Source: Limnomonas spitsbergensis (taxonomy: Eukaryota > Chlorophyta > Chlorophyceae > Chlamydomonadales). Taken from it: a DNA stretch of 64,000 bases. Positions 2,788 to 62,252 of the stretch are shown here, piece by piece; position 1 is the first letter of the stretch, and the number at the start of each line of letters is the position of its first letter. Under the pieces are notes generated by a model. The model had not been told where the DNA came from, ran no database searches, and saw only the letters and a program-made list of their open reading frames with translations. Both the position numbers and the translations under genes were made by a program. The DNA lies in assembly GCA_037349105.1 (NCBI GenBank), contig JAYJMM010000039.1:4949001-5013000 (forward strand), given 5' to 3'.

Positions 2788-5700
2788 ATGGACTCCAGCC
2801 GGGTACGCGATGCGGTCCATAGCGTTTTTTGCAAGGGAGACGAGACGATTTTGGATTACGTCATCGGCATTCTCGAGGATGAGTACTTTGAGTTTGGAGA
2901 CGATGGAGAAGGGGCTTTCGAATCCATAGGGCCGTTCCTGGTGAGAGGGCGGCGCATCATTATAAGCTGCAGGACGCCAGGTTGCTCGCCGCACCACAGT
3001 TAGTTTGCGCATGACATCTCTAGCACACATGGTGATCTCATGAGCCATGCATGCATGCATGCAAAAGTAGTGAATTGCACCCCTCAAAAGCTTGTCGCCA
3101 CAGTGTCAGTATCCACTCCAGGGATCTCTCATGCACAAGGCGATGTAACGTGCCATGCGCACATACCTGCATGCATCTCATGCGCCTTGCGCGCCTTACT
3201 GCCTGCATGCCATGCCATGCAGCTGGACGGTGGCTGCTGCGACAGTGAGGAGGAAGCCAAGCAGGGATGCAGGATACTAGCCTCGCAGCTTTCAGGTGAG
3301 ACGTATTTTTATTTCTTATCACTCATCGTGCACGAGCAGCTCTAGGGGGCAGCTCAAGGGCACAGATGCAAGCACGCATGTATGCTTGCATGGTCTCTCT
3401 GGGGCATATCTGGGGCACGCACGCATCAACACATGCACGCATTTTTCACCGGACACCTATCGCCTAACACCCCATGGGCTTAATCAGCTCTGGGGCAGCT
3501 CTGACATGAGCAGCTCTGGGGCCCATACATGAGAATTCCTGATTGAACCACGCTTCCCCACGTGCCATGCCATGTGCCACGCCATGCGCGATGCCATGCG
3601 CCACGCCTTGCCACATCATGCCATATTTTTGGAACTGTCTCATGGACGTGCCAGCGTGCCGCTACCTCTTCGCAGTTCGCCTGGTTGCGGGAATCACAGA
3701 GTATCATGCACGCATGCTCGCTTCCTGGTTTTCGATGTGGCCGATGTCTACTTTTGTGTGCTCTAGACCACTACTTTAGGCAGTCCGCCTGGGCGGCTAC
3801 TTACAGGCGGTTGTAGACAGAATCTCAGCCGACCTCTGGCCACAGCCCCATGCACCAAGCACCTTGTTGCACCAGGCACCCATGGCCGTAGGCCATGATG
3901 TAGCTGAATTGTAGCTGTTGTATCCTTAAATGGACGGTGGTGCTTCATCTCTGAGTATGAAATCACAGCACCCTCTCTCTACACTTGAAGGCGTCATCAC
4001 AACAATCATTTAAATAATATAACGGTGCCAAAACTTTATCTGAGAACTCGCATGGAGAGGGTAACAGTGTCTGCTGTTGCACATGGTTTAGTTCAAGCCA
4101 GCAGCGCAACGCAGGTCCTGCTGGACATTTGCCCGGTCTGCCAGGCCAAAATTTGAATACAAAATCTGAATCACCTATTGCGCACGATTGAGGAGCCGCC
4201 AGCAGTGCAATGCTGGTGTCTCTGATCAGCAACACGGTCCAGCTGGCAAAGTTTGAAAGCAAACTTCGATTCGCTGTGTAGCCATCATCGATGCATGCAT
4301 GCTGCTGCATACGACCAGGTTTTTTCCGCGCACGGTCATGCTACTGTCACACATTACCATGCTTCTGTTGTGCACAGTGATGCATCTGTTGAACACAGTG
4401 ATGCATCTGTTGCGCACAGTCATGCATCTGTTGCACACAGTCATGCATCTGTTGCGCACAGTCATACATCTGTTGAACACAGCCATGCATCTGTTGCGCA
4501 CAGTTATGCATCTGTTGCGCACAGTCATGCATCTGTTGAACACAGCCATGCATCTGTTGCGCACAGTCATGCATCTGTTGCGCACAGTCATGCATCTGTT
4601 GAACACAGTCGTGCATCTGTTGCGCACAGTCATGCATCTGTTGAACACAGCCATGCATCTGTTGAACACAGTGATGCTTCTGCCGCACACAGTCATGCTG
4701 CTGTCACACACGATGCAAGTGCTGCCAGGAGATCCGCTCCGGCCACGCGTGCACCAGGCAGCGGCCTGGTCTACTTGGCACGCTCAAAATTATTCAGAGT
4801 CTAAATTGCTGCCCAGCCATCCATGCTGCTTGCATGCTGCCGCACGCCGTCATGCCTCTGCCGCACACGTTCATGCTACTGCCGCGCACGGTCATGCTGC
4901 TGCCGCACAGGATCCAAGTGCTGCCACGCGTGCGACGGATGGCGGCCTGGCCTACCTAGCATATGCAAAATAAAACGAATACAATGTCTGAACCGCTGTC
5001 CAGCCATCAACGAGGCCCGCCTGTTGCTGCTGCTCACGATCCAGGTGCCGCATGCCGTTGCGCTGGCCATGCGTGTGATTGACAGCAGCCCGGTCCACCT
5101 GACATGTCCAAACTTTTGAAAGCCTGAATCGTTGTCCTGCCGTCAATGCTGTCTGCATGCTGCTGCTCGTGACCCAGGTGCTGCAAGCACCGCCGCGCCG
5201 TCCATGCGAGCACTGGATAGCGGTCCGGTCCACCTGGCCAGTGCGGACACGAAGCAGCTGCTGTATAAGGAGGTTTCCTCCAAACACCTGATAACGGTAA
5301 GGCAGAGGAGGGTGAACCCTAAACCCTTAGCCCTCAACCCTTAATAAGGAAGTTTCCTCCAAGCACCTGATCATGGTCAGTTTTGGCGGGGAAGGGGTAG
5401 ACCCTCAACCCTCAACCCTCAAACCTCAACCCTTTACAATGTGTCCTTCAAGCACCTGATAACCGCGAGGCGGTCTGTTGTTCTGATCAGACAGTACAAT
5501 TGCCGATCAGCGATTCTTCGGTTTTCCGCTAGGCGCCAGGAACACCTCCCTGATTTCAGGTACTTGATGTCAGACTGGCTCACACCCCGACTTGTTGCCT
5601 GACCCTTCGCCCTCAAGCCTAAACCCTAAATACCGTAAAACCACTTTAACTCCGCGCACCCCCCAAAAAAAGAATTTAATTTTCGGCCGCGCACCCCAAA

Positions 5701-8700
5701 AAGAATTTAAAAAACGGTCGCGCAGCGACGAAATTTTAATTTAATTTAACGCCGCGCAGCACGAAATTTAATTAAACATCGCGCATCACTGGAAATAATT
5801 AAAATTTTCGTCCGCGCAGCACTTTCAGCCAGTACAGTCAAACTCAGTTACACCTTCGTTTGATGCTAGCAGGACCCGCATACCGTGGTCGTCATCCCCC
5901 TCCTCCGCCGATTCCTGGCCTCAGGAAACGTGTGGCTATTTGGGCCCGGGGGCTCAGTGGTACTACGTAACTTAGCAGTCCACCCTGAGGTCTGCAGTTC
6001 GAATCCTGTCAATGTTCAGCACTGTCAGCCAGTACACCAATACTTGGTTAACACCCTCACAGTCAGCAAAAGTCATCATACGGTAGTCAAAATTGCCGAC
6101 AAGGATGCCTGAACGGATGTCGAATCAAACAGTCGCGCGCTAGCGCGCAAAATTTTGTAAAAAATGCTGTTTTTAATTCATACCGCGCACCCCCAAAATA
6201 ATTGTTTGGGCACCTGACTGACGCTCCGCGCAGCGGCAATTTTTGAATTAATATTAGCGCGCAGCCATGTCCGCGCACCCCAATAATTATTTAATTACGA
6301 GCGGAGCTAAAGTGGTTCTACGGTACCCTCGAACGGGTATTAGCGCTGCCCGGGGCATGTTGGACATCCCTTGGCACATGCAGGCTGTCGATCTGTGCCG
6401 ACGGCGGCAGCGCTAAAAAAAACAAAGAGATTGCAGCTGAGCGAGCATAAGGGGTGCGACACTGGCCATCTGACTCCTATTTGTATTCCATTTTATTCCT
6501 GTTATCCCCCCAAGGTATATTAATTTCCTCTCTCTTGTCCTGTCCTTCCCAATCATATCCCACTTTCAGTCCCTCCTTAATGATCCCATTCATTCCTTAC
6601 GAGCCTTTTTGGCGCCAAGCTGCTCCTGTTACTGATTCTGATCGCGAAACCTCTGCCTGAAGTTTTGAACATGCGCAACAGCCGCTGCGACCACTAACCC
6701 CGATGAAAATAAAGGAGGGAGCCAACTCACTCCCCCGCATGCTCCAACTTGTTACTTCCCCCTGTTGTTAAGTGCTGTGCAGCAATCCCTGCTGCCACTA
6801 CCCTTGATGCCTAAACAGGTCGGACACAACTCGCTCCCCTGCTTAGCCCTTGCGCCCCCCTATCCCCCCTGGTTTTGTAACGTGCAACAAGTGCTGCTGT
6901 CGCCGCCGCCCTCGATAACTGAACAGGAATGAGCCAACTCGTTCCCCTGCATCTTGTATTCCCCCCCCCCCCTGTTTTTGTGAAGTGCAGCTATTGCTGC
7001 CGCCGCTGCCCTAGTGCCCTGGAGGATGAAGCAGGACACAAGCCAAGTCACTCCCCTGCATCCCCCTTTCCCTCTTATCCGCCTTTTTTTTGTAGCGTGC
7101 AGCAATCGCTGCTGCCACTGCCCTCGTTGACAGAGCATGACGGAGACAACTCGCTGCCTTGCATATCGGGATATTATCAGAATTCCGTCTTTATCTCTCC
7201 CCCCCTAATTTCTTTTTTTTTGTCTTGCGCAGCAACCGTTGCCGCCGCTCCCCTCGGTGACTGACAAGGACAGAGCCAAGATTGAAAAGAAATATGCGCG
7301 TGATGAGGCCACCAGCAGGGCTGCCTTCGAGTCACACAAAGTAAGAAAATGGGTCTGTAGCAGCTGGTCTGGGGTACAGGTAGGGTTCAGGGCTGGTTAC
7401 TTGGTTAGGGTCCAGGGCCTTGCCTCTGGGCTTGGAATTTTGTTTGAAGTCCAGGACTAAGATTGATGCGACATTTGAGCGTGATGAGGCCACCAAAAGG
7501 CCAGAGCCTTTTACAGCCACTAGGTGAGAGCATGATCTTTCAGATGCGGATTCAGGGCTTATGTATTGGGGATTATGTTTGGGGCTTGGGCCAAGAGTGG
7601 AAGCACCAGAGCTGGCTGGCGTGACGAGGCCACCAACAGAGAGGCCTTTGAATTACATAAAGTTAGAGGATGGGTTTGCAGCTGCTGGTCCAGGGCATAG
7701 GGTTCAAGGCTGGTTTGGGTTCAGGGCTTGAGGATCAGGGTCAATGTAAGGTTCAAGGTTAGGTGGGAGGTTCCGGCCAAGGTTGAGGTCCAGGGCTAAA
7801 TTTAAGGTTAGGTTCAAGGATAGGTTCAAGGATAGGTTCAAGGATAGGTTCAAGTATAGGTTAAAGGATAGGTTAAAGGTTAAGTTCAAGGTTAAGTTCA
7901 AGGTTAACTTCAGGGTTCAGGTCAAGGTTGAGGTTCAGGGTTAGGGACAGAGCCAAGATGGAAGAGATGTTTGTGCGTAATGAGGGTTGGTCCAGGGCTG
8001 AAGATTAAGGGTTACGGCATCAGCTCAAGTATGCATTTGACGAGGCCGCCAACAGGGCAGCCTTCACCTTGCATCAGGCAAGTGCATGGTCATACAGCAT
8101 CTGGTCCAGGGCTCGGGGCTCAGAGTTACGTCACCAGCCCAAGTAGGCGCGTGATGAGCTGTGCTGTGCCAATTACGCTCAATACCGGGGCTGAATTACA
8201 TAGCTGAGCTTCAGTTGCTTGCCCAGGGGGGGTCTCTGGTTTTTGCTTATTGTCCTAGTGTATCAATTGCCTGTACGGTTTACGAGCACATGTCCCATGT
8301 ATCAAATATGATGCTACAATGGACTGCAAAAACTTCACAGTCACCGTAATGTCAAGGCAAAATCAGCTACTCTTACCCGTAGGACGCCGTGATTACGTAC
8401 ACGCAAGGGTCTATGGCAGCAGGTGCAGGGCGCAGGGTTCAGGGTTATGGGTTATGGGCACCGAGCTGACACCTTGAAGGCGGGCCATGTAGGAATGTGC
8501 CCCCCCATGCTGCATTATGTGATCCCTCTTGAGGGTGCTCAGAAATTTGTTCCCTGCCTCTCCTCACTTTCACAACACAACTTATTTGAACGCACATCAG
8601 CCGCAATTCAGCTGCACCATTTATTTGAACGCAATTCAGCTACAATTTAGCTACACCAATTATTTGGACGCACTGAAGCTACAATTCAGCTATATCTAGG

Positions 8701-11700
8701 CCCACTGCGGGTTGGGCCTGGTGCAGCAGGTCCTGCTACTTGCTTCATGAGCCGGTCAAGGTGCGGTCCTAACCGAACCTTTTGTCTCTCTCTTTGTTGC
8801 TCCCCTCACTCTTCTCATTCACATCAAGCCTTTACTCTTCCCATTGTTCTCATCTGTTTCCACTCTTCTCCGCCCCCCACTCACTCCCCTCCATCTTTCT
8901 CACCCCCATCCACACATATGACCCTTCCCTGACCTCCATGCCTGGACAGACCTCACTCTTCCCTGACCTCCATGCTCTTCTACATCCATTTACTCCTAAT
9001 CACACTTCCTCCCCGCCTTCAGGTCCAGGCAGATGCTGCAGACCTCGGTAACCTGCCTTTCTAACTGGTTCCCACCCTTCTCACCGCTCCGCATTTTTCT
9101 TACTCACCTTCACACTTCCACCCCACCTGCAGGTAGACGCCACTGCTCGCAGGGACCTGCCATTCTCACTCGTTCCCCCTCGACTCACACTTTCCCACCC
9201 TTCTGACTCCTCTGCACACTTCCACCCCACCTTCTGTTCCAGGCAGACGCTGCAGCCTGTGGGAATCAGCCTTCTCACTCTTCCTCACCCTTCTGACTCC
9301 TCTACACACTTTCCTCCCACTTTCAGTTCCAGGCAGATGCTGCAGCCCGCGGGAACCTGCCGGAGATCATCCGCAACGCAGGCGCCGCAGGCTGTCGAGA
9401 CATTCATCTGGACGATTTCAACCTTTCAAACGGTGCGCTGAACTTCTGTGAGCATGCACGTCGATGCAAAGCGTGTGGCAAGCCGCGCTGCATGCAAGCG
9501 TGTCGTGTAGGGCATGCAGCTTTTTCTCCGCTTACCATTCTAGCATATCGTGTGCCATTAGCATACCCTAGATTTCTTTCGCCACCCCTTGGGTGCGGCA
9601 TGCACCCAAGGGGTGGCGATCCCCCCCCCTCATAAAATGATTTATTTCTCATCTGCCTCCCCTCAGTGCGCTGCGACCCTAATCACGACTGGATGGTGCA
9701 AGAAAAAAAGAAAGCTACGCCCTATAAGGGCGGCGAGGTTAAGGAAACAGCGCAGCTTGGGGCCGTAGCCACGTCCGCGCCGTGGTCATTGGATGGTGCA
9801 TGCACTATCTCCACTCACCATGCTTGCTTCAGGACTGGCGCCCGCTCCCACACCCCTCAGGCAGTTACCATCCATACACGATGGAGGGACCGACTAACTG
9901 AGTGTCTGACTGTCACCCTGCCTGCCTGCAGGTGGGATCTGTCTCTGCCTGCCTCCCTGCCTGACGGACAAATTGCCTGCCTAACGGACAAACGGCCTGC
10001 CTACCTGTCTGCCTGCCTCCCTGCCTGACGGACAAATTGCCTGCCTAACGGACAAACGGCCTGCCTACCTGTCTGCCTGTCTCCCTGCCTGTTTGCAGGT
10101 GGGAATGATTTGATCGCCGCCTGCCTGCCTGCCTGACTGTCTCCCTGCCTGTTTGCAGGTGGGAATGATTTGATCGCCGCCTGCCTGCCTGACTGACTGT
10201 CTCCCTGCCTGTTTGCAGGTGGGAATGATTTGATCGCCGCCTGCCTGCCTGACTGACTGTCTCCCTGCCTGTTTGCAGGTGGGAATGATTTGATCGCCGC
10301 CTGCCTGACTGACTGACTGTCTCCCTGCCTGTTTGCAGGTGGGAATGATTTGATCGCCGCCTGCCTGCCTGACTGACTGTCTCCCTGCCTGTTTGCAGGT
10401 GGGAATGATTTGATCGCCGCCTGCCTGCCTGACTGACTGTCTCCCTGCCTGTTTGCAGGTGGGAATGATTTGATCGCCGCCTGCCTGACTGACTGACTGT
10501 CTCCCTGCCTGTTTGCAGGTGGGAATGATTTGATCGCCGCCTGCCTGCCTGACTGACTGTCTCCCTGCCTGTTTGCAGGTGGGAATGATTTGATCGCCGC
10601 CTGCCTGACTGACTGACTGTCTCCCTGCCTGTTTGCAGGTGGGAATGATTTGATCGCCGCCTGCCTGACTGACTGTCTCCCTGCCTGTTTGCAGGTGGGA
10701 AAGATTTGATCTCGGACGCCACCATGATGCTCGCCTTCGGTCGGCGCTACGGCCTTATCGGCCGGAACGGGACAGGTAGGGCACGGCTGGCTGCACCGCA
10801 CATTGGATGAGGAGGCCAGGCATCCATTTGCGAATTGAAAAGGAAAAGGCACGCTCCACAGGAAAGGGTCCGCTGGGTCTGGGCTGCCTCTGCAGGCAAT
10901 GAGCACTGCAGCAATGCAATACTGCAACACTGCAACAATGCAACACCAGTGTGACACACACACACACATGTCAGTTTATCAGTGTATCAGTACATCCCCA
11001 GTATGTACGTACATCAGCATAACTGTACATGTACAGCAGTACATCAGAATCCGTACCTATGCATGCAAGAAATAAGCACATGATGGTACGCACACATGCA
11101 TAATGAGATGATGACATGCACTCACACACATCCACACACTTGCATGGACCCCCACCCCCACCCCCACCTCCACCCCCACCCACCCACGCACGCACACATA
11201 CACACTGATACAGCTATCTTTCCATTAATTTGTTGTCTTGTACCGCTGCAGACGCCACCCAGTCCTGCCCCCGGTGCGCCGCTTGGTTTCGGAACCACGG
11301 CGTCTCAAAACACACACACATCCTTTCGGCCAACTTGCCTTTCCGCAGCATCTCAAAACACACCCACTCCTGTCTTGCCTTCCCAAGATATTCTGCTGCT
11401 TTCCTCGCCGTACACAGGAAAGACGACGTTGCTGCGGGCGCTGGCTCTTCACGACATCAAAGGGATCCCGGGCAACTGCCAGGTCAGCCCTCAACCCTGA
11501 AAACTGAAAACTGAGCCCCTAACTGGTCACAAATCACGTCGTGAAGGGATGCGTCAAAGGATCGGCGTATTAGCTCCCACAAGCCTGAATAAGCTTATTT
11601 GACTCATGTGGGGTAGGCTTAAATGGGCTTTTGCAGGCGGCCAATGGAAAGCCGTCAATGGAAGGCTGTCAGAGAGCATCTTCCATGGCACAAGATGAAC

Positions 11701-14700
11701 ATGGCGCTATTGCCAGGCAGACACCCAAACTCCTCACGAACCTGGGGGGATATCGCGCAGCTGCCAGGTCAGCTCTCAGCCCTGAACCCTATTCCTTCAC
11801 CCTAAACGGCGCTAGGGGTGTACCGCACATACTTAAGGTGAAGCACCATGATGGGCTGTAGGTTGGGACAGTGGGGCACCATGCAGTGTCTCTTCGCCAG
11901 GTGGCTTTCAGATCTGTGAAAACCACATCCCTCTACATCTCTACTGTGATGGCTAGCTGGTAACGCATATGGTATGAACTTCACTGAGAATCGCATGAAG
12001 ACCTTTAGGCCATCCATGCCGTCTAGCTAGGTGCACCCTCCCCCCTTTCCTACACGAGGGTGTTTATGCTGCCACATGAAGGGTTGCATGGGGTCATCCA
12101 TGCTGCCGGTGGTCAAGTGCATCACTTCCCCCTGCAGATCCTGCATGTGGAGCAAGAGGTGGTCGGCGATGACACGCCTGTGATCCAGGCAAGTGCCGCT
12201 CCCCTGTTTTTTCCGGTATACCTCGGCTCCAATTCAGCCGCATCATGGCCTGTCCCATGGTCGGGGAGGTTTGGTGCAGCAAGCCCTGCTGTTGGTGTCA
12301 CCAGCTGCACCGGCCTACCGCCGGTACAGGGTTGGGTCCCCATCGGCCCAGTGGTGACTGCCCAGGGGCCAGAAAAAATGTTTGGTTTCAGGGTTTGGTT
12401 TCAGGGTTTGGTTTCAGGGTTTGGTTTCAGGGTTTGGTGCACACTATGATGAAGCAGGCCCTGCTGCCCCAGTCACTGTGTTCAGGTTCAGGTCTGGTAC
12501 TCAAAGTTTGGCACGCACTAAACCCTGGACCCTGGACCCTGCGCACTAAACCCTAAAACCTACTCAAAGTCTGGCATGCACTAAACCCTAAACCCTATAC
12601 CCTATGCACTAAACCCTATACCCTAAAACCTGCTAAAAGTCTGGCACACACTAAAAATGAGCTATAGTGCTGTCTTGTTGTGAGGCGCTCGGTTCAGGTT
12701 GGCGTTTGCCAGGTATGGGGTCAGGCTAGCAGCTAACACCAGATGTATAAATGAATGAGCCCCTGGCGAACGCTGCTCTGTTTTTTTGTTGAGTTGAGGC
12801 TTTGGGTTCTAGGCTTGGGCATTTGGGGCGCTCTGAGGCCTGTTGCCCCAACTTGAGGTGGGCTAGCAGCTGCAGCAGCAACAGCAACAACAGAGACATC
12901 ACCAGGTTGTGAACCTCTGCCTCTCCTGTTTGGTTTGCCCCCTCGTTCTCAGATCAGAAGACATTGGACGAAGGCTTGAAACCCTCTAATCCCATCCCAC
13001 CCCCCCACACCATCGTGCCGTGAAATACGTTGTGCAGTGAACTTATCATATGCCCCTAAATCCTTGACCCCGAACAAGGAACCTTTGCTCCCAGAGTAAG
13101 GTGCAATGAACTGGACCCTTCACCCTAAACCCTCGCTCCCAGGTCGTTAGGCAGTGAACATAATCAACAGCGCTTAACCCTTTCACCTAGACCCTCGCCC
13201 CGGAACATAATGCCATGAACCTTATCTGTTAATCCCTTGCTCCTGGATGAGCAGGCAAAAATGCACCCTAAACCCTTGCTCCTGGATCAGCAGGCAAAAC
13301 ACCTTAAAACTTGACCTCTAAACCCTCCCTCCTGGATCACCAGGCAAAACGAGCCCTAAACCCTAAACCCTGAACCCTTGCCTCTGGATCACCAGGCGGT
13401 AAACTAAGAAAAATCCCAGACCCTGAACTTTCGCTCCTGGATCACCAGGCAAACAAATAAATTAACCCTAAATGCTGTATCCCTAAACCCTGTATCCCTA
13501 AACCCTGTATCCCCAGGCCGTCCTGGAGTGCGACACTGAACGCACGGCGCTGCTGGCGGAGGAGCAGGAGATCCTTGCCAAGCTACACAAGGTATGAGGA
13601 CCCAATTTCGAACGTTGGAAGCTAACGTTCTGAGATCGATGCCATGCTGCGTATCCTGGCAGAGTCTGGCAGATCCTGGCAGCTCCTTGCAGCTCCTGGC
13701 AGATCCTGGCAGATCCTGGACAACCTGCACACAATGCACTCACCTCTTGAGTCCTGCTAGCCTAAGACGTCGTCAAGCCTTCGGGGCCAGCATGCCTGGG
13801 CCTTGTTGCGCGACATAGCTTGGGTGGGGGGGGGGCAGCTGCTTGGGCTGGGGGGGGGCAAGGGAGGGGGCAACGGAGGCACTTCTCTGTTCTGTTGCAT
13901 GGAGGAGGTCAGAGTGTCTGTTGGTGCACCTGAGGTTGCAGCCATCGGAACATGGGCAATCGATTAAGCAGACTCAGAGCTCGAAAGGGGTTAATAACCC
14001 CGGGTTTTCATTAAAGATTGTACACGTAATATCGCCCTCAACCCTGAAATCCTGAGGTTGATATCATGGCAGGTGGTTAGCGGGTAGCGGAGAGGGCTTC
14101 ATCTCTGTAATGTCTGTATGCTTACTGGAGCAGAGTAGCGGCAAGAGATTCGGGATAGCGTTAGCGGGTAGCGGACAGGGCTTCATCTCTGTATGCTTTG
14201 TGGAGCAGAGAAGCGACAAGAGACTAAGGATAACGTGTGTGAAGGATTTAGGTTTGAAGCCGCTGGACCAAAGGGATAAGGTCCCAAGGTTAAGGGTTAA
14301 GGCCGCTCGACAAAAGAGTTGAAGGATTTAGGGTTCAGCCGCTGGACCAAAGGGTTTAAGGGTTTAGGGTTTAGGCCACCGGACCAAAGGGGGTTTAGCC
14401 GCTGGAACAAAACCACCAAAGGACCTGGAAAGATCATCTTGGGGCGTTGAGGCACAAACATTATAGCAGCTGTCAATCCATGTTGCATGAAAAAGAGTTG
14501 AAGAGCTTTGCGCAGTGCAGGTAGCGGAGTTGCCCATCCATATCGCGTTGTACCGACCTCAATAGGTTCCCTGCTGATGATCTGCTTCCACCCCCCCTAG
14601 GGTTTAGGGTAAGGGTTAAGGTAGGTTCCCTGCTGATGATCTGCTTCCACCTCCCTAGGGTTTAGGGTTTAGGGTTGGCTCTCTGCTGATGATCTGCTTC

Positions 14701-17700
14701 CACTCCCCCTAGGCTTTAGGGTTAGGGTTGAGTGTTAGGGTGGGCTCCCTGCTGATGATCTGCTTCCACCTCCCTAGGGTTGAGGATAAAGTGCTAGGGT
14801 TGGCTCTCTGCTGATGATCTGCTTCCGCTCCCGCTGCCCAATCAGGATAACCAGGGGGGACCGACAGCCTCAAGCGGCTCCCAGCCGCCGCCGGCTGGCG
14901 TTGCGGCCGCCGCAGAGGATGCCGCCGTGAGCGTGGCGGACGCGGCTCTGGCCGCACGGCTCATAAAGGTGTATGAGCAGCTGCAGCAGATCGACGCGTT
15001 CGGTGAGCAGGGCTGGGTGCGGCGGGCATGCTGAGCGTTTGGGCATGCGGAAGATACTGTGGACTGTTCCGTGCACTTTCCCATTTCCCGTGCAGCTCAA
15101 TTATACGGTATACCGTTATACATGTAGTTATATAGATATATAATATACCGTTTGTGACGTACCGGTATTGCCAGGGGAAAACTCTTATATACTGACTGTA
15201 GCTTTGACTTCCCCCCCCCGCCCCTACAGCCGGGTATGGATAATGTGATTTGAAGCTCCGCCCTCTTGACAGCATTTAGACCCAAACTATTGATTTCTGA
15301 CCGAAGTCGTGATCATTCATGAGCGATACCCAGTATTTTTGTGTATCTCTCACCCCTGAACCGTGTCCAGTACAAGGGCAGGCAAACCACCTTAATGTGT
15401 GATGTATGTTTGGCACATCTGAACAATTGTACATACCTCATAGGCACCCATAATATTCTCACACCGGTACCGGCTTGTCTTGTTCCTGCAGGCACCGAGC
15501 TGCAGGTTGCGACCCTTCTGGCCAGGCTATACCTTCAGCATCCTTCTTCAAACTTAGATCCCTGTTCTTTGTCACGCACCTATTCATGCAGGCGCCGAGG
15601 CGCGAGCTGCCACAATTCTAGCCGGGCTATCGTTTGACGACGCCATGATGAGAAGGGCCACCAAGACTTTCTCAGGAGGTGCGCCGCACTGCCTCCCTCC
15701 ACTTGCTGGGCGGGTGTGCTGCCTCCTATCTCCGAACCACCACGATTCCAGTGCCCTAAACCCTTGACCCTAAGCTTCCCCCACGACCTTGTCAGGTGGT
15801 GCGCACTGCCTCTCTCCACTTGCTGTGCAGATATGCTGCCTCCTAACCCTAAACCATCACGATTCTAGGGCCCTTAACCTGAAGCCCTAAACCCAAATCC
15901 CTCCCCTAAACCACGACAATGGCAGTGCTCTTAATCGGTAGCCCTTTGGCTGAACCTGAAGTCCTCCTCCCTAGACCGCCGTAATTACAGTCTTCTTTAC
16001 CCTGCACCCAAAGTTTCTCCCAAGACTTGCCCAGGAGTTGCGCCTTCCCTCCTTCCTTCTTGGGTGCGCGTGCCCCCTCCTCCCGCCTCTTTGAGCTTGA
16101 TCACTGCGACCTCCCACATTGAGCCACGACACGCGCCCCTCATCAGTTGCTTTCTGTTCACCTGAACAGCGGAACCCTGGGGCTACGAGGGGCTGCGAGA
16201 CCCATTTAAGAAACACAAAGCAACAATACCCTTATTTTGCACCTCTGTGATGCGTTTAGGGTTCAGGATTAAAGAAATCCGGGACGAGGGAGCCCACTTC
16301 CCCCCCTTCCCCCCCCTCTGCCCCCTATGAACTCCTTCTCGGCAAGAGGTTGGAGTAGAAATTTGCCAACCTTGTTGTTCGGGGTGCTGGGTTAGGTTTT
16401 AGGGCCTGGTCATGACTCATGAGAAAAAGGTTCAGGTTTCAGGCAATCCCTGAACCCCATAAGCCTATTTTGCTGACAGGGGCAGCGCGCTGGATTTGGG
16501 GGGTATAGCTTGTTTGACACTGACAGGCTAGCACAGTTGCCCGAACCCTCATCCCTTAAACCCCAACGGCTGTTGCGGTTGATTTCGGTTGGCTGCTGAT
16601 CCAGATCCCTGAGCACGCCTGCCCCTTGTTGCATCGTGGAGGATGCACTAATGGTGGTCAAACAAACCCTCCTTTAACCCGTAACCCTTCACTCTAAGCC
16701 TTAAACCCTGAACCCGCCATTTACCTGTAACCCGTAACTCTAAACCCTTAACCCCAAACCCGCCATCAAGCCGTAACTCTTGACCCTAAATCCTCACACA
16801 TCTCCCTTGCTTTGCAGGTTGGAGGATGCGCGTCGCGCTGGCACGTGCTTTGTTCGTTGAGCCGGTGCGTTGGGCCTGGTGCACAGGTTGTTTCTGGTTT
16901 GCCTAGCACCCAACATACTACTCGATTTCGTACTTTCCACGCCAAGTTTGGTGGGCCGCAGGGTGGCCACGACTGGGCCCATGGGGATCAAAGCTTGCAC
17001 GCCTATGTTATCTGATCGCCAGACTAACTTTGGATGGCAGCCAGGCGCGGCCTCCCCTGGGTCGATGGGGGCCAGACTTGGACAAACCTGCGTCCAGAGA
17101 TCCAGGTAGCAGGGCTGGCCTCGCAATGGGCCTCCAGTCAGAGGCCTTAAGGGGGCTGAAGTGTAGCTGGACAGTAGCTGAATGGGCCTCAAGGTGGCTG
17201 AAATGAAGCTGAATGCTCGTAGCCCTCTCAGTACTTGGGTCTGGCAGGTGCCCCCCTTAATCCATGCATCAGGGTGTGTAATCTGTTTATTCATACATAG
17301 CAGAAGTGTAGCTTAACTGTAGCAGTACTGTAGCTGAATGACGAGAAAGGGACACTAAGAGGGGGTATACTTGGCATCCGATGGGCCGCTGATGTGGCTA
17401 GGGTGGATTTGGGTCGGACCTGGAGTGGCAGAACCGGAGCGGGAGATTCGTGAGATGTACCTCCATATAGAGGAAATTAATGAAGTAAACCCGACATATA
17501 AAACCCTAAAACCCCAAATATAGGAAATTAGTCAAGTAAGTGCCCCCTTCCCCCCCCACACACACACCTCCCAGGATCTGCTTCTGCTCGACGAGCCGAC
17601 CAACCATCTGGACTTGCACGCCGTCCTGTGGCTGGAGGAGTACCTGCTCAAGTGGCCCAAGACGCTTCTGGTGGTCAGCCACGCGCGCGAGTTCCTCAAC

Positions 17701-20700
17701 TCGGTGTGCACGGACATCATGCACCTGCACTCGCGCAAGCTGACCACGTACAAGGGGGACTACAACTCCTTCGTCGCCACGATCGCGGAGCGCATGCGGA
17801 ACGCGAAGAAGGCGGCGGAGGCCCAGGACGTCAAGCGCAAGCACGTGCAAGCTTTCATCGACAGGTTCAGGTGGGGTGGGGAGAACCCAAGTTTGTAACC
17901 TTCAACCCAAACTCCAAAGCATGACCTAGGGTGCCAGGCGGTGGAGAGGAGGAGTGGGCGGGCTGGCGGCATCTGAGACACTGTTGTGTGGCTAAATGTT
18001 GAGGCTGATGGAATGTTCAGAAGCCTCTGAGTATATGGGGCCTGCAAAAAGCTATGGGGGAGGCGCCGTGTGCGGGGGAGGCGCCTTGTGCCTGTTCTGG
18101 GGTAGAGGGCATTCAAGGGCGGGGGAGTTGCTGCATCAACATGCTGCCTTGATCGTGAGCACTCTGGCACGCACCCAGGGACCTAAAGCCCGGCATTCGT
18201 CTTCACTACTAAGACTGCAGTGCCCTATACCCTAACATCTCCCCCCTAACCCCTGAGATCTCCCCTTAACCCTAAGATCTCCCCCTAAACCCCAAGATCT
18301 CCCCTAAACTCTAAGATCCCCCCTATACCCCAAGATCTCCCCTTAACCCGAAGATCTCCCCTAAATCATCACAATTACAATATAAGAGAACCTCAACCCT
18401 AAACCATAATCGTTGTAGTGCAATCACTAAGCCAGTTACATGAACCCTAAACCCTAACCACCATGATTTCGGTGCCCTAAACCCTGAACCTTTAGCCCTA
18501 CCCCCTTCACCAACACGATGGCAGTGAGTCACGTCGGAGCCCGCATGTCATAAGTGTGACTGCATGCCGAAGTGTGACTCAGGAAATTAAAACAGGTGAT
18601 TAAAAGGGAAATAAAATACTTGCGTGCTGCCATACCGTATTCCTGAGCCTTGTGGTGCATTAAAATTGTGTATGAAACCGCATTTGTTTTGTTCTTCCGA
18701 CACGATTGTTTCTATTCTCCGTTCCCAGCCTGAGGGTACAATGCCGGTCGTGTTTTTAGTGAATTGAATTCTGATTACGGTATCAAACAATTGCATTCGT
18801 TGCCTGCCCATCCCACCTGCCAGGTACAATGTCCACCTTGATTGGTCAATTGAAATCCGCTGATACAGTGACACAATGATATTTATTTCCTGCCATTTCC
18901 ACGCGGCACCTGGTACCATGCCAATGGGGCGTTGTAAATTGAAATCCGTTAATAAAACGATTGCATTTGTTTCCTACCAAGTCCGCCCATCCCATCTGCC
19001 AGGTTCAATGCCAAAAGGGCTTAGTTCATTGAAATCCACATGTCAACAAATGAATTCATTAAACAAACGATTCTGCTTGTTTCCTGCCCATCCCACCTGC
19101 CAGGTACAACGCCAATCATGAACAGTAAATTGAATTCTGCTACCGGTAATGAAACGATGATGCTTGTTATTATTATATTATTATGCAAACGATAATGCTA
19201 TTATTATATTATTAAATTGTTTGTTTCCTTCTTTCAATCCCACCTGCCAGGTACAACGCCAATCGGGCCGCGCTGGTGCAGTCTCGAATCAAGGCTTTGG
19301 AACGCATGGCAGAGGTTGAGCAGGTATGTGTGTGCGTGTGTGTGGGGGGAGGGGGGTCAGCACGGCAGCAGCAATAGCTGCAACAGCAGCAACAGCTGCA
19401 ACAGCCAATGTTGATTCGAGTTTGTACCAGACCACCTTTGGGGGGTTGCCGGGCGGCCCTTAACCCTTAAACCCTAAGCCCTTAACCGTAAACCCCAAAC
19501 TAGGCGGCAAACGCTGGGCGGATGGGACCAAACCTTTAACAACCCACAGCCGGAGGTCCAAGCAGGAGGCACCCTGCACAACATGTCCCCTTGGCCGTAG
19601 GCTGTAATGCGTAGCTGAAATTGTGTGCTGAGATGAATTGTAGCTGAAATTGTAGCTGAAATTGTGTGCTGAAATTGTAGCTGAAATCGTGGCTGAAATT
19701 GAGTGCTGAGATGAATAGAGAGCCCTTCAGCAGCCTTTATCGAATCCATGAGATTCTATAGCATGAGATTCTAGCATGCCCCGCCCCTACCCTCGTTCCG
19801 TCCAGTCCCATCAGGGCTCGCTAGCACAAAACAAACCTGGGGCAAACCCTGATGCAAACACACGCCTTACTCTAGATCCCTCATAATTGACGTTTGGGGA
19901 GTTTAGGGGTGAATGCAGCCAGGGTGCGCCACAAATTCTTGAACGTCGCCGCCAGTTTCCTGTCGGAACTCGAGACTTTTGATCGCAGACATGAGGGCCG
20001 CATTGAAGGAATCATGAATTTGTACCCAAGGAGAGGTAAAGGAAATCCACCGTAGGGCGTAGGGTGTAGGTCCTTGACCCTAGCCCCTTCCCCTATAACC
20101 CTAGGTCCTTGACCCTAGCCCCTTCCCCTATAACCCTAGGTCCTTGACCCTAGCCCCTTCCCCTATAACCCTAGGTCCTTGACCCTAGCCCCTTCCCCTA
20201 TAACCCTAGGTCCTTGACCCTAGCCCCTTCCCCTAAAACCCTAGGTCCTTGACCCTAGCCCCTTCCCCTAAAACCCTAGGTCCTTGACCCTAACCCCATA
20301 ACCCTTAACCCTAGATCCTTGACCCTAACCCCTTAACCCTTGGTCCTTCACCCTAACCCCATAATCCTTAACCCTTGGTCCTTCAACCTAACCCCATAAC
20401 CCTTAACCCTAGGTTCATGACCCAACCCCATAAACCTAAACCCTAGGTCCCTGATTCACCACGTCGCAGATGGAGGAGAACCCCGAGTACGTGTTCCGCT
20501 TCCCGGATCCCGAGGATGGCGTTGGGCCGCCCATCATCAGCTTTAACGACGTCTCGTTCAATTACCCAGGCAAGGCTATACCCCTGTACTGCACTGTACC
20601 GCCAGGTACCGCACTGTCCCACACTGTACCGCACTGTCCTGCAATGAATCGCCCTGCCCCGCCCCTCAATCTCTGAACCTATCATCGGCTTCATGGACGG

Positions 20701-23700
20701 CTCCTCCAAGGAAGTGTCTTTCAGTTACCCAGGCTAGGCTATACCCCTGTTCCGCCACCGTACCGCAATGTACCGCAATGCAAAGCTCTATACCGCTCTG
20801 TCCTGCAATGTACCGCCCTGCCCCGCTCTTCAACCTCTGAACCTATCAGCCTATCCTATCAGCCCACCAACAGTTCCACCGACGCCTCCTTGCACTACCT
20901 AGGCCGGGCCAAACCCGTCCAGCACAGTCCCGCCCTGTTCCGCCCGTCAACCCATCAACCCCTCAACCCATCATCAGCTTCAAGGATGTCTCCTTCAGTT
21001 ATCTATGCTAGGCTATATCCGTGTTCCGCACTGTCCAGCTCTGTACCGCACTGTCCAGCTCTGTACCGCACTGTCCCGCACTGTCCAGCTCTGTACTGCA
21101 CTGTACCGCACTGTGCCATAAGCCTTGAACCCTAAACCCTGTCAACATACCATCCGCGCTTTTAAGTCTTAGCTCCTAAACCCTTAGGGCAACCCTATCC
21201 CTGCCGACACCATGTCTGGTCCCCTTCAGCCTGCAGGCGCCAGTGATGGTGTTCATCTGGCATGCGCTCCGCCCTTCCCTACTCACCTCTGCCCCCAAGT
21301 GGCCCTCTGCCCCCAAGTTGAGCTGGCTTACGCTTCTTTACCCTAAACCCTAAGCTTTACCCTTGACCCTCTGTCCCCAGTTGGCCCCACGTCATGCTGA
21401 CTTCCAGGTCTTCACCCTGAACCCTACCTTCTTACCACTCTGCCCCTAGGTGGCCCTCTGCCCCCAAGTTGAGCTGGCTTACGCTTCTTCACCTTGAACC
21501 TTACTCACCCTCCCCTCTGCCCCCAGGTGGCCCCACGTTGTTCAAGAACCTCAACTTCGGTCTGGACTTGCAGAGCCGCTTTGCCATCGTGGGGCCAAAC
21601 GGCATTGGGAAGTGAGTTCCAAACCTTGCAGAAAATGGAAAGTAAACAAAAGCATACCGTAAGAGTTTGAATGCAAATTAAGAAAATTATGTGCATCGTA
21701 ATTGCTGTTCCTAAAGGCAAGTGAGTTCCAAATTTAGCTCCGGATCTCCCGTGCGCATGCCTCCGCATCCGCCTCCACTCTTCATCGTGCTATTCGGAGG
21801 CAGAGTGCCCCGGCAACTCTTGCCAAGGTACCGCCGGATACCTCTGCATCCGCACTCCCTCTCCACCCTATCCTTCCGCAATCGACTCGTGCCCGGCTCT
21901 ACTTTCCCGATGATGAACTCGGCCGCGCCCCACCCCCACCCAACCCACCCCCCCTCCATCGGCTTCAGCCCCGGCAGCAGCATTGCCCCTTAGCGATGAG
22001 GATGCCGATGAGGGTGTTGCTGAGATGGATCATGATGATCTTGATGATGAGCAGCAGACAGCCATGGAGGTGGCCATTATCCGCGTCAATCCCGTCATGA
22101 AGGGCCCTAAGCTGGGCGCCGCTCCAAACTGGAAGCACAAGCTGTCGATCATAAGCCACACCGAGGCAGCCATGGTGATCTCCAGCCAAATCAACCACCG
22201 CCTGTTTGAAAAATACAACCCGCACCTGACCCCGGAGCAAGGAGGCGGAGGCATGCGCACGGGAGATCGTGGAAGCGCCATGCGGCCTGAAAAGACGGGT
22301 ACTTCCGGTAGCCAACTAAGTAGAGCGGATGCCTCCAAAGGGTGGGGATTGCAAGTCGTCCATGATATGAGGATGTTGCTAGACGTAGAGAGAGAGAGAG
22401 AGAGAGACGATGGGGGAAGAGGGAGAGGAGTTGTGTAGGTAGATGGATGTTGGAGTAAGGAGGAGGTTCTTGTGACCTACGGCAACGAGAAGAAACAAAA
22501 CATGTTAAGAGAAAGCCGCATAGAGAGAGAGAGTGCAAGCTTGAGAGAGAGAGCAAGATTGAGAAAGCGCAAGATTGAGAGTAAGAGATTGGTAGAGAGC
22601 TATTGAGTTAGAGAGCTAGAGAGCTATGAGGTAAAGAGCTAGAGCGATGAACGGTAATGGATGAGTACCAATCCGGGTCTTCTTCTCACCTCGAGGCGCA
22701 AGGGGTGCGTTGCTCTTGGAGGTAGATGGAGGTTGGGGGTGGAGGTTGGGGGTGGATGAAGCTGATTCCAAGATTGACCTACAATGCAAATGAGAAACGC
22801 AGAAATAAATTATCAAGGCAAGCATGAGAGGAACATCGTTGCATGGGAGCAAAATGATGCAAATATTTGAATCAAGGTCACATGGAGTGCACATGTCCGA
22901 TCAGAGTCATTCAAACGTTCACATTGGGGTATTCGGACATGCTGAATCCGATTCCGGCCTCAGATGGTCGAATCTATGGCTCACCTTGAAGCGCAGCGCG
23001 CACTGGTCCGTCGGCGAGGGTGGGTGTGAGGGTTTATGGCTCAAGGGAGGAACGACAGAGGGCAGGGTGGTAGCTACGTTGCTCTGAGGGTTGAATGGAC
23101 TTTTGAAATCGACGCTGAGTTAGTCAAGAACGAATTAAGAATGACTCTGATGTGACAACTGGAGGCAAACGAACGCCCAAGTGCAAAGTGTGGCAAATTC
23201 AAACTTGGCTTGGGGGTGGGGTTGTCTCCCAACTTGCCCACTATGGGGAGCTACCCTAAGCTTCACAAATCTGGACCATCCAGGGGTGTAGAAGGGGGTG
23301 TTCGGACCTTCCCGAATTCATTTTCGAGGTCTCAGGTCCATCAAAATTCATCTTGAACCGATCTGGAGGGCAGCGGTGTCCCTCCCTGGTGCCCCGGGCC
23401 AAGGGGGGAGATTCAAATATTAGCTACCCTAGACTTGGCCGATCTGGACCATCCAAATGTTGAAAAGGGGGTAATTGGACCCCCTGATCACGAACCTGTC
23501 GGTCTCAGGTCCAGAAAAAAATTATTAAGACCGGATCATTTGGACAGCCGTAACCCTCCCGGGTGCCCCTGCGGCCCAAGGGGAAGATCCAACTTTTAGC
23601 TACCCTAGAATTCGCCGATCTGGACCAACCAAATATGTATTAGGGGGTATTCGGACCCCCTGAACACGATGCTGTCGGTGTCAGGTCCAGCAAAATTCAT

Positions 23701-26700
23701 TACAACCGGATCTTTGAGACAGCCGTAACACTCCCGGGTGCCCCCGCGGCCCGCGGCCAAGGGAGCCCTACTTTAGAACGAGTACCACGAAGAGAGGAGA
23801 AGTGAAGTACCACGAATAGAGAGAAGAAGCAGTTACCGAGGGAGTCAAGGTCGTGACTAGAGTGGTGCCGCGAGTAGTACCGCGAGTAGTACGAAGTAGT
23901 ACCAAAGTAGTGGGCAACTACGGCACCTAGTACCAAAGTAGTGGGAAATTTACGCCAATAAATTACACACTTCCTAGAGAGACAAAAACACTTCTGAGAC
24001 TAACCGGGCCGAGAGTTTTTTTTTAATTGGAGAAAATTGCACTTCCCTAAAGAACGAAGTTCTCTTCTCTTAGTCTGTAACACTTAGACTCACTATTTCC
24101 AACTACTTTGAGTAAATTAGAGTGTTCAAAGCAGGCGATCGTCTCTCGCCTAAATTTCGGAAAATTAAAAAAAATGCATTTTAATCTAAATTTAATCTAA
24201 AACCTTATCTTGCGATACTGGAGGGGGCTGGTCACTTAGGGGGTCGGACGAGTCCCCGGACAACCATAGTCGAACCTTGGGATGGAGTCTTTCCACCCGA
24301 AAAGTTTTACTGGCTTCCAGGACTTCAGCTTAATACGGTAGGAAAGTTCGATTTTTCCTGCCGAAGCTTTTGTGTGGAAAGGCTCCGTCCCGGCTGAACC
24401 CCCTTGTTTAAGGGGACTCATCTGACTCCCTAAGTGGCAGGCCCCTAGATACCGGATTGATACCGGTACAGAGAAGGAACAATTGTTTTTGTCATATTTG
24501 TTTAGTTTCGGAGCCATGTGCCTACTCTTCACCTCCTCACTCCCCTGTGATACACTTTTCATCTGTGCCACCCCTAGTGAACGTTACTCCCCTGTGACAC
24601 ACCCCGTTAAGCTCCTGTGTTTATTTCAGTGCACACCAGACCCCCTTCGGCAGGCTGGAGTGTAGCTGAAGCGTAGCTGAACACACACACGCTAATCAAA
24701 AGCGGTGAGCACCCTGTTGACGATAAGCTTGGGGTGGACAGCTCCACCATGACACCCTCCATGGTCCGTGGACCTTTTCATGAAATTTTGAGTGCCCCCC
24801 TCAGCTCGCCAGGTCCACCTTTTGAGGCCTCATCTCTGCCTCGCCCCCCCCCCCTACTCTGCATGGTCCGTGGACCTCTGCGTGAACTTTTTGTGAACCC
24901 ATCTGCTCGCCAGGTCCACCCTTATTAGCCTCATCTCCGCCCTCCCCCCCTCCCTACACTTTCCATGATAACATGCTTGGGGATTTGTGTGAAGCTGCAT
25001 GCCCGCTGGTCCGACCATTTTGGCCTCATCTACCACCCTGCCCTACCTGCATGCCCGCTGGTCCGACCATTTTGGCCTCATCTACCACCCTGCCCTACCT
25101 GCGTCACGTTCCCTGATCACCTGTGTGTGAATTTGTGTGGACCCCTCTGCTCGCCAGGTCCACCCTGCTGGGCCTCATCTCCGGCCACTTGGAACCCACC
25201 ACGGGGCACATCACACGCAACCCAAAGGTGAACATAAAGAAAAAAGTGGGCTGTCGTGGGTAGTTGGGCACAGACACATGCACTTCAACAAAAAGTGGGC
25301 TGTCGTGGGTAGTTGGGCACAGACACATGCACTTCAACAGAAAGTGGGCTGTCGTGGGTAGTTGGGCACAGACACATGCACTTCAACAAAAAGTGGGCTG
25401 TCGTGGTCAGTTGGGCATAGGCATATGAACCATGTCAAAAAGAAGAAGCGCCCAATGTGTTCCGCCCGGACTAGAGTATCGTGCCGCCCGTTCTGCTTAT
25501 CCCTACGTGGACGGAGTTTTTTGGGCGATCCTACACTACGTAAGGGGACCCCACCTGCTTGCTCAGGTCCGCCTCGCCACCTTCAGCCAGCACCATGTGG
25601 ATGGCCTGGATCTGGCTCTTACGCCGCTGGCCATCATGATCCGCTCCTACCCCGGGCTGAAGGAGCATGAGGCGCGGGCGCACCTCGGCTCGTTCGGGAT
25701 CAGTGCAGAGCTCGCCACGCAGACGATGTACACGTTGTCGGGAGGGCAGAAGAACAGGGTGGCGTTCGCAAAAGTGGGTTTGGTTGTTTCGGGGGGTGGA
25801 GGGTGGGTGTGGCATTGAGCTCGTGTTGGTTCAGCTGACAGTTTGCTGATGCTACCAAGCCGCGCATCATGCTCATACAGCCAAGCTCGCGCACGCAACC
25901 GCACCTACACTATTGTTTGCCTGTGAGGGGGGGGGTTGGTGCGACATTGAGCTTGTGTTGGTTCCAGCTGGCAGGTTGCTCACCAAGCCGCGCATTATGC
26001 TCATACAGCCAAGCCCATGCGCCCGCACCCGCATCTGCACTGTTTTTATCTTGAGCCCCACAAGTGCTGTGCATTCATTTCGGCTGCTCGCACTTCAGCA
26101 CTTGTTATCACACTTGCAAATGTACTGACACAGTGACACTTACACTTGTACTCTCACCTGCAGTCTTGCACATACGCACTCGCACATGTACTGGCACTCA
26201 CACATGTCCTCACACTAGCAAATATACTGACACTCACACATGTGCTCGCACTTGCAGTCTTGCACTGGCATTTGTACTGGCACTCACACACATACACCAA
26301 CATGTACTCGACTCCTCGCACTGGCACATGCACTCACGCATGTGCTTGCACTTGCAATTGCCCTCCTCATTCCCTGATGTCCCATGCCCCATGCGGCCAT
26401 GCCCCATGCCCCATGCGCTCCTTGCTCCCTCACAGCTGACGTTCACCCAGCCTCACATCATGCTCCTGGACGAGCCTAGCAACCACTTGGACATTGATGC
26501 GGTCAACGCGCTCATCCAGGGCCTGGCCACCTTCAAGGGGGGCGTCCTAATGGTGAGAGACGGGGGCATCATGTCGGGGAGGGGGCAGCGGTAATAATTG
26601 CGGCAATGGTACCGGATCCTCAGGGCAGAATGAGCTTACGTGTTTATTTCACCCGGCTATGTTTCAGGGGCCGCTGGGCGACCACATTTAAGGGGGTGAA

Positions 26701-60423: not shown

Positions 60424-62214
60424 TTAGGGGGGAGACAGGAATTTTGGCAGAGTTTTGAGATGATTATCTCTTTTCAACATACACTGAAAGATAAAGCAAC
60501 CAAATTTCTTCCAGAACACATATGCAGAATCCGCTGCATTTAGTTTGCCCCACACTCCATTTGCGTACCGTTTCATGGCCTCATCCTCGTCCTCTAGGAA
60601 ATTATGGAAAGTAAGGTTAAACTGAAAACGAAGGTCTGTATAGAACGGGCAGTAAATCATGTGAAGCTCATCCTCCCGACATTTAAGATTGCAACATCTA
60701 CAAATCCTCTCGCTACGAGGCACACAGGGTTTCTCAAAGCGCCCCGTCTCAACATTCAGCCAATGCGACCCCATCCGATACCGGGCTACAGCAAAAATAA
60801 TATTAGGCTTACTCAAATTGTACCAGAAAGTCTCCTTCACATCACGCTTAATATGGAACCACTTAGAGAACGTAAACAATTTGAACCCCGAGCGTTCTGA
60901 GTCAGGAGTAGCATGTACTGACAGGGCCGTACGTGGCATGTCCCTGGAAATTTTGGAAAGCCACTGATCCCTAGCTGAATTCACAACTTTGACCTCAATA
61001 TCCAAAGAGGTATTGGCTGATGCAGTTAGTAAATCAATACCCAGAGTCATCAATATCGTAGACAGAAAACCAGCCCAACAAAGTGAGGTGCCAGCCTTCG
61101 CCAAATCACAACTTTCCTGCATAGCCATTTTCACAAGGTCATTGTCAGGCCTCTGATTAATTATATTCCAAAAACTCAGTGTCTGCTGAAAAAGACTTAA
61201 GATAAGGGGTTCACGGTGCAGTTCACTCATGAGAACATACTCGGCCACAGACTTGCGAAGACCCAGACACTGCCTAAGGAAACCCTTGTGAATTACCTCC
61301 AAATCTCTAGAGAAACCAGTATCTGTCAAGCCGACTCCTTTCGCAAGGAGACCTGGTCCCCACATTTCACACCCATAAAACAGAATAGGCTTCACTAAAG
61401 AGTCAAAAAGATGACATTTAATGTGAACATTGTGTATGTCAAGCTCATGACATCTCCGGACCATGGCATACAAAGCTGCCCTCCCTTTGTTGACACAACG
61501 TCTACCTGCTCCCTTCATACCCTCTGCCTCATCAAATAACATACCCAAGTAGATGAAAAAGGGCTTAATATCAAGAACGCTTCCGTCATAAGACAGAGAT
61601 GCCAAATGACTGCAATATTTCTGGTTAAAAACAACTGCTTCAGATTTTTTTATATTGACTGTCAAGGCATTGTGGCGACAAAAAATATGGAGAGCATCAA
61701 GAAGTTTTTGCAGATCATCCGACGATTCAGCGAATAACACCAGATCATCAGCATAAAGTAAAACTCTGACCAAAGCATGTGAAAGACGGGCGCCAATATC
61801 AGGGCACTCACTAGGGACAAACTTCTCGAAACGGTCGATAAACAGGCCAAACAATAGAGGGGACAGCGGGTCTCCTTGTTTAACACCCATAAAGGAGGAG
61901 AAACTATCTCCCAGTTTACCACCAACCCGTACACGGATTTGTACATCCTGATACATCTCCTTCAAACTTTCTAAAATCCGGCCGTGCACACCCATGCTCT
62001 GTAAACTCCGCCACAATAAATCTCTGTCAATGCAGTCATATGCCTTCCTAAAATCAATGAAAGCAGCAAAAATCGTTTTATTCTCCGAATGGTATTTTTC
62101 AATAATGTGGTTTAGAATGAAAGCATTATCAGGTGTTCCCCGTCCATGCCAAAAACCTGCCTGGCCATCGGCTCTGAAACCCTGACTTTCTGCCCAAGAA
62201 TCAAGACGTTGCAA
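60424..62214 (-). pseudogene. 5'-truncated non-LTR (LINE) retrotransposon reverse transcriptase
   Basis: Open frame of 596 codons covering most of a LINE-type reverse transcriptase and its C-terminal part. Seen: FIDFRKAYD (catalytic Asp ~54), QGDPLSPLLFG (113-123), the YADD catalytic box (154-157), and a C-terminal Cys/His knuckle (CRCCNLKC ... ELHMIYCPF) typical of LINE ORF2. The endonuclease and the start of the RT domain are missing. The frame has no ATG at its start and is cut at ~62217, where CCCTAAA repeats begin. No poly(A) or tail repeat was noticed at the 3' side. The RT core itself is intact, so decay since truncation is slight. Confidence 0.88.
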
Positions 62215-62226
62215 TAAGACGAGGGA

Positions 62227-62252
62227 ACCCTAAACCCTAAACCCTAAACCCA
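62227..62252. repeat. Telomere-type CCCTAAA units at the LINE 5' junction
   Basis: Three perfect CCCTAAA units in tandem (CCCTAAACCCTAAACCC), immediately next to the truncated 5' end of the LINE. Confidence 0.9.

Follow-up and report, generated by a model that had tools for sequence, protein, structure and literature searches.

Introns full of local repeats are known from the dot chromosomes of the chicken, where the phenomenon has been named 'sequence stuttering' (Hron et al., February 2026, PMC12954441). 'Exon stuttering' is recorded there for 236 introns of 115 genes, 190 of these introns lying on dot chromosomes, and consists of repeats that reproduce the lateral part of an exon next to the intron, splice site included, with more than 90% of the exon copies beginning at most one base from the exon border (PMC12954441). 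The passages of that paper considered here list intron-length variation between individuals as one of three main features of stuttering in the chicken and place the phenomenon in birds and not in other vertebrates, except for GC-rich gerbil genes, for which data are not shown there. We describe introns of the same anatomy in an ABCF3-like gene of Limnomonas spitsbergensis, carried on a stretch of 64,000 nucleotides (assembly GCA_037349105.1, contig JAYJMM010000039.1, positions 4,949,001 to 5,013,000), hereafter the window, to which all coordinates refer. The 64-kb window belongs to the nuclear genome of this green snow alga.

Splice sites are repeated at 3-nt spacing in NAGNAG tandem acceptors, and Zhuo et al. 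in 2007 reportedly traced introns of human genes to tandem arrays. Both resemble the algal locus in repeating splice sites in tandem and differ from it in kind: the human cases concern new introns and the NAGNAG sites a 3-nt spacing, whereas the alga has decaying edge copies set tens to ~150 bp apart. The Rogers model of tandem genomic duplication, as outlined in the passages of PMC3443670 considered here, likewise involves tandem duplication near AG|GT in genes, with splicing keeping the protein unchanged; in the alga, by contrast, existing introns are lengthened, and the signature of intron birth was tested and is absent. GC-rich avian genes (PMC6792250) also have introns of tandem repeats, sometimes longer than in relatives, but G-quadruplex motifs are stressed there and exon-edge copies are not mentioned in the passages of that paper examined.

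The algal introns agree with exon stuttering in that they hold direct repeats, local and imperfect, ranging from tens to hundreds of bp; some of these reproduce the lateral part of the neighbouring exon plus the splice site, with the exon itself unchanged and the copies local. They differ in that the algal cases lie on several contigs of a 54% GC genome (54.15%; PMC11228838, in part), unlike those on the GC-rich dot chromosomes of birds, and in that the ABCF3-like copies are mostly older and decayed. At the threshold of the chicken screen (a BLASTn-short match of at least 42.1 bits and at least 20 nt in the adjacent intron; PMC12954441), none of the 19 ABCF3-like introns qualifies, because the copies are old, and 7 of 66 edges in other genes do; relaxing the score admits one ABCF3-like intron at 36 bits and two at 32 bits. 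We read the preference for dot chromosomes as a property of birds and not as part of the definition of stuttering. Judged from one assembly, the algal anatomy is the same as that of exon stuttering, a known phenomenon in a new kingdom. The first-pass annotation of this DNA, made without database searches, had known of no described genome like it, a view now overtaken by the chicken dot chromosomes (PMC12954441). In the open-licence literature we found no case in a green alga, in another protist or anywhere else outside vertebrates, and 'sequence stuttering' occurred together with 'intron' only in the bird paper (PMC12954441). With a second, distant lineage, the bird phenomenon needs neither dot chromosomes nor extreme GC.

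Exon-edge copies in the ABCF3-like gene

Copies of exon edges in this alga are direct, local and specific to the side of their own junction, occur in several genes on several contigs, differ between paralogues, and are about as frequent as copies of background sequence. The ABCF3-like gene (2788–27957, +; 20 exons) was examined with queries of 60 nt of exon joined to 30 nt of intron, each aligned to the remainder of the intron it borders and to 100 dinucleotide shuffles of that sequence; an edge passed if z was at least 4 and none of the 100 shuffles reached its score. Eighteen of the 38 edges passed, spread over 14 of the 19 introns: twelve acceptors (exons 3, 4, 5, 6, 9, 10, 11, 12, 14, 16, 17 and 19) and six donors (exons 3, 4, 7, 11, 15 and 17). 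Fifteen of them have a best match that spans the junction; of the other three, the exon 10 acceptor and the exon 17 donor match through intronic sequence alone, and the exon 19 acceptor through exonic sequence alone. Exon-only queries of 45 nt pass at 10 of the 38 edges.

These results bear out the first-pass annotation in its central observation, that introns resemble their own exon edges more than shuffled sequence does. Its exon numbers are those of the 20-exon model, and 15 of the 16 edges it named pass; the exon 16 donor fails (z 2.6, 3 of 100 shuffles as good). The exon 9 and exon 12 acceptors and the exon 17 donor were absent from its list, and the decay of units with distance from the junction that it described is only rough.

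The copies are direct and confined to their own introns. With a 19-exon model lacking exon 3, which was also used for copy coordinates, no reverse-complemented edge reaches z≥3 (0/36), and edges match non-adjacent introns of the gene at z≥4 in just 4 of 544 comparisons. The 90-bp consensus of the exon 5 copies has its own locus as its sole match in the 260-Mb genome, in a search that skips very common words. None of 16 exon-interior windows of the gene has a copy, and no full-length exon copy appears among BLAST matches in the ABCF3-like gene or in six paralogue loci. BLAST at E≤1e-4 recovers copies at just 4 of the 38 edges, which we attribute to the greater age of the copies.

Copying at exon edges and elsewhere

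Exon edges are not special in being copied. Across the ABCF3-like introns, 43% of 45-nt windows have a direct copy in their own intron at z≥4 (10% for inverted copies), and 30% of high-complexity windows do so; by the standard of the first-pass annotation itself (repeats equally common at random intronic positions), this refutes the idea that edges are special. Pseudo-introns in the rest of the window pass at 25 of 114 flanks and 12 of 57 inner positions, and random positions in 26 other loci, unscreened for exons, pass in 48 of 288 cases, with seven inverted. Set against this last count, exon-only edges show no significant excess in the ABCF3-like gene (10/38, p=0.17) or in other genes (10/66, p=0.86), the three counts differing slightly in shuffle numbers and cut-offs. 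Junctions are neither preferred nor avoided by the duplication process, windows on the acceptor side excepted.

Other genes and paralogue pairs

The ABCF3-like gene is not exceptional, as had first been supposed. Other loci were picked from Pfam matches to ABC_tran (13 of 19 rows, open frames of at most 214 codons) and to the chaperonin family PF00118 (CCT; 6 of ~16 places), and putative edges were set by splice-site score, giving 75 edges, of which nine with short targets were skipped and 66 tested. Junction-spanning copies were found at 19 of these 66 (CCT 9/41, ABC 10/25), on ten contigs in addition to that of the window. Exon-only queries pass at 10 of 66, reverse complements at 0 of 66 (exon-only) and 2 of 66 (spanning), and matches to foreign introns at 2 of 198. 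The ABC loci are not fully independent: L018 is a paralogue of L019, and the pairs L008/L009 and L010/L011 are each near neighbours on a single contig. In L019 an exon end is repeated four times downstream at 93, 93, 79 and 77% identity, with the donor intact in the first copy.

Three pairs of loci, chosen for similar-looking matches, allow a comparison between relatives: L031/L032 and L033/L034 (chaperonins) and L018/L019. All are old paralogue pairs on different contigs. Their conserved blocks are ~77–94% identical and are separated by gaps of differing length; block ends serve as stand-ins for exon ends and may include some intron. Edge copies are present in both paralogues at 10 edges, in one alone at 13 and in neither at 23. 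Gap lengths, taken as a proxy for intron-length variation within the species, are at least 1.5-fold apart in 15 of 23 cases. Total copy number differs between the paralogues at 17 gaps (the informative ones), and in 13 of these the longer gap is the richer in copies (sign test, p=0.049). BLAST at E≤1e-4, run with one block of L018/L019 and the first, long block of L033/L034 excluded, recovered 43 copies of block starts or ends, all direct and all on the side of their own junction, at 21 of 84 block edges; no whole block was copied, and one shuffle per edge gave zero matches. Within the blocks there were 16 more direct matches and one inverted. The pairs themselves may hint at segmental or whole-genome duplication.

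Decoy splice sites

The strings of decoy splice sites foreseen by the first-pass annotation are present: 36 of 45 junction-spanning copies in the ABCF3-like gene retain an intact AG or GT/GC. AG is kept in 26 of 34 acceptor copies (23.8 expected from the identity of the remainder) and GT or GC in 10 of 11 donor copies (6.6 expected). The dinucleotides are thus retained about as expected and decoys are not purged, so that selection against decoys was rejected. Scored with a matrix built on the real sites, 17 of the 36 intact decoys equal or exceed the real site; with the exon 6 array set aside, the count is 7 of 25. None of the 36 would give an in-frame, stop-free exon extension, and the suggestion that they feed useful alternative splicing is accordingly unlikely.

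At exon 6, ten decoy acceptors tie with the real one, and each precedes a stretch that matches the exon at 16 of its first 17 bases; the last acceptor must therefore be selected by more than the site itself. Since these upstream sites score equal to the real one, we suggest that the real acceptor is recognised jointly with the exon behind it (exon definition). The exon 6 array offers a ready test of acceptor choice by the spliceosome.

Origin of the copies

The copies most probably arise by recurrent local tandem duplication of non-coding DNA that is blind to junctions, lengthens introns and fills them with copies of their edges. The search for tandem repeats (units of 25–400 bp) found 92 distinct loci in 323 kb, with units of 25–185 bp. 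Two-copy repeats of at least 95% identity (n=31) have a median overhang of 10 bp, compared with 0 in 1239 simulated random duplications, and of 7 bp once four overhangs of at least 25 bp are dropped, which suggests short-homology slippage or end joining. Short flanking homologies would probably seed the duplications. A unit straddling an acceptor would create new upstream copies of 'intron end plus exon start', which would be absorbed into the intron provided that splicing takes the acceptor nearest the exon, as homology indicates it does; a unit straddling a donor would produce the mirror image. With the protein unchanged, boundary-crossing duplications would survive and, hidden by splicing, lengthen the intron. 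The copies would then decay neutrally, leaving decoy splice sites behind. The first-pass proposal that introns expand by recurrent tandem duplication over exon/intron borders is in this respect supported.

We infer that the process reaches past the sampled loci to the whole genome. It is possible, if somewhat doubtful, that boundary-crossing duplication drives the growth and turnover of introns throughout the Limnomonas genome, with no tie to small GC-rich chromosomes, and that exon definition makes junctions transparent to it, the spliceosome passing over ten upstream acceptors with scores equal to that of the real one; exon stuttering might in that case be a general way for introns to grow, having appeared independently in birds and green algae. 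If so, the arrays would be a natural experiment on splice-site choice. Large differences in intron length between related genes have mostly gone unexplained in cases that mobile elements do not account for; here, copied exon sequence serves as a marker that proves duplication to be local and allows its events to be dated and counted.

Several observations weigh against junction-blind, neutral duplication. Intron windows adjoining acceptors have copies in 60% of cases, compared with 41% for deep and 33% for donor-side windows, so position may matter to the process to some degree. Block interiors in L031, L033 and L018 are also copied, in 9 of 45 windows compared with 12 of 36 edges, which overturns the idea, suggested by the ABCF3-like gene, that exon interiors are free of copies. 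Splice sites in the other genes are score-based guesses, no edge passes in two of the six CCT loci (L027, L028) or in six of the 13 ABC loci (L011–L016), and the trend of copies with gap length is reversed in 4 of the 17 informative paralogue gaps. Partial third copies could account for part of the overhang, and the retention of donor dinucleotides is somewhat above expectation. In 31 copies counted by codon position (exon 6 array left out), mismatches in the exon part run at 0.215, 0.201 and 0.319, the third being higher (p=0.0002); we ascribe this excess to the real exon staying under selection while the copies drift. Thirty of the 31 copies lack a frame-shifting gap in the aligned exon part, to which we give little weight because short alignments seldom open gaps, and stops account for just 3 of the 184 codons that changed; both would also suit copies with a coding past, which some may have.

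Two alternatives place the cause at the junctions themselves. Edges might be duplication hot spots, for instance if pyrimidine tracts or R-loops at splice sites favour slippage. The richness of acceptor-proximal windows relative to deeper ones fits this idea, but donor-proximal windows show no excess and exon-only edge rates are no higher than at random positions; an edge hot spot was rejected for the exon-only tests, which do not rise above background, and is unlikely overall even though intron windows on the acceptor side are richer. The copies might instead be relics of intron birth, in which a coding segment bearing AG|GT was duplicated in tandem and the stretch between two AGGTs became an intron, an origin that the first-pass annotation had also raised. 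Tandem genomic duplication is an established model elsewhere (PMC3443670, in the part considered), and a GT stands directly after the acceptor at 7 of the 19 ABCF3-like acceptors, so that copies hold AG|GT. The model predicts that the upstream exon end resembles the intron end and the intron start the downstream exon start. Within an intron, however, the donor context resembles the acceptor context no more closely than in pairs drawn from different introns (local score 7.29 vs 7.64), one of 19 introns exceeds the 95th percentile, as expected by chance, and intron-side sequence is present in most copies. We regard intron birth by AGGT duplication as quite improbable and rejected it, the context test being without signal.

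It is very unlikely that the copies are functional decoys or alternative exons retained to tune splicing. The many intact dinucleotides and the decoys that score as high as the real site would suit such a role, but the absence of any in-frame, stop-free extension, the near-neutral retention of acceptors and the differing copy sets of paralogues all speak against it. Whole-exon duplication, with mutually exclusive exons, was dismissed: BLAST finds no full-length copy in the ABCF3-like gene or the six paralogue loci, and none of the decoys opens in frame. Introners occur in other algae, and the copies could in principle stem from an introner or dispersed mobile element that brought splice sites with it. 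The copies hold the host exon's own sequence, however, non-adjacent introns of the ABCF3-like gene seldom match, and the one unit tested, that of exon 5, matched its own locus only, very common words being skipped. With the copies local, we rejected this origin as extremely improbable.

Gene model and catalogue of copies

The ABCF3-like gene was modelled by hand with the help of homology and has a coding sequence of 2163 nt whose only stop is the terminal one. Its exons, supported by an open frame, splice sites and homologues, are as follows.

Exons 1–5 (+): 2788–2940, 3223–3295, 5211–5296, 7233–7340, 9333–9432
Exons 6–10 (+): 10695–10775, 11418–11482, 12138–12188, 13517–13591, 14846–15002
Exons 11–15 (+): 15592–15678, 16818–16864, 17575–17870, 19251–19323, 20470–20569
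Exons 16–20 (+): 21527–21611, 25158–25227, 25567–25773, 26436–26552, 27826–27957

Exon 3 was recognised from a gap in the alignment to homologues. Among the best 120 of 7995 matches, the closest homologue, with a query lacking exon 3, is from Chlamydomonas eustigma (76% identity). The 19 introns average 1211 bp; the mean intron of the L. spitsbergensis genome is 788 bp in the merged annotation (PMC11228838, in part). All donors are GT except for GC after exons 8 and 15; the GC-AG introns start at 12189 and 20570, and all three copies of the exon 15 donor are likewise GC. The copies, all but that of the exon 16 donor belonging to edges that pass the test, are listed below.

4716–5112 (+): three copies of the acceptor and start of exon 3 (starts 4716, 4901, 5038; end approximate)
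5344–5475 (+): two copies of the end of exon 3 and donor (starts 5344, 5441; end approximate)
6663–6725, 6762–6829, 6855–6937, 6975–7012, 7070–7149 (+): five copies of the acceptor and start of exon 4
7462–7534, 7619–7701, 8027–8111 (+): copies of the end of exon 4 and donor; exon part alone at 7958–8000
8992–9057, 9099–9161, 9203–9271 (+): three copies of the acceptor and start of exon 5
9898–10694 (+): eleven copies of the acceptor and start of exon 6
11730–11786 (+): copy of the end of exon 7 and donor
13115–13174 (+): weak copy of the acceptor and start of exon 9 (z 4.1)
14571–14774 (+): four copies of the exon 10 acceptor, intron side alone
15483–15530 (+): copy of the acceptor and start of exon 11
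15778–15835, 16020–16072 (+): copies of the end of exon 11 and donor, the second with TT in place of GT
16614–16646 (+): weak copy of the acceptor and start of exon 12 (z 5.8; under the score cut of the copy census)
18789–18835, 18882–18930, 18960–19020, 19074–19117 (+): copies of the acceptor and start of exon 14, these four in the copy census; a weaker one at 18705–18750
20708–20773, 20862–20934, 20967–21046 (+): three copies of the end of exon 15 and GC donor
21282–21305, 21336–21392, 21410–21456 (+): three copies of the acceptor and start of exon 16
21716–21732 (+): short possible copy of the exon 16 donor, not significant (z 2.6)
24772–24836, 24874–24942, 24971–25031 (+): copies of the acceptor and start of exon 17; a weaker one at 25052–25083
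25279–25414 (+): 49-bp array of the first bases of intron 17, intron side alone
25845–25886, 25980–26014 (+): start of exon 19, exon side alone, copied twice within the 5' portion of intron 18

The exon 6 copies belong chiefly to a 60-bp array at 10059–10711 (10.9 copies, 97% matches; Tandem Repeats Finder).

Other features of the window

Intron 16, the longest of the gene (3546 bp), contains a coding-like open stretch at 21960–22310 that is possibly a nested element or gene remnant. Runs of a telomere-type motif resembling CCCTAA/TTTAGGG are dispersed in introns, for example at 20067–20454 and in many further places. Outside the gene, a 79-bp satellite occupies 36560–37274 (9.1 copies, 99% matches), and this array is very recent. 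An open frame of 1506 codons at 42982–47499 (−) has no Pfam match at E 0.001 and partly overlaps an 87-bp repeat at 47006–47902 (10.3 copies, 85%). A second open frame, of 601 codons at 60427–62229 (−), encodes a reverse transcriptase domain (PF00078, E 1.2e-24) and is probably a LINE-like element (long interspersed nuclear element).

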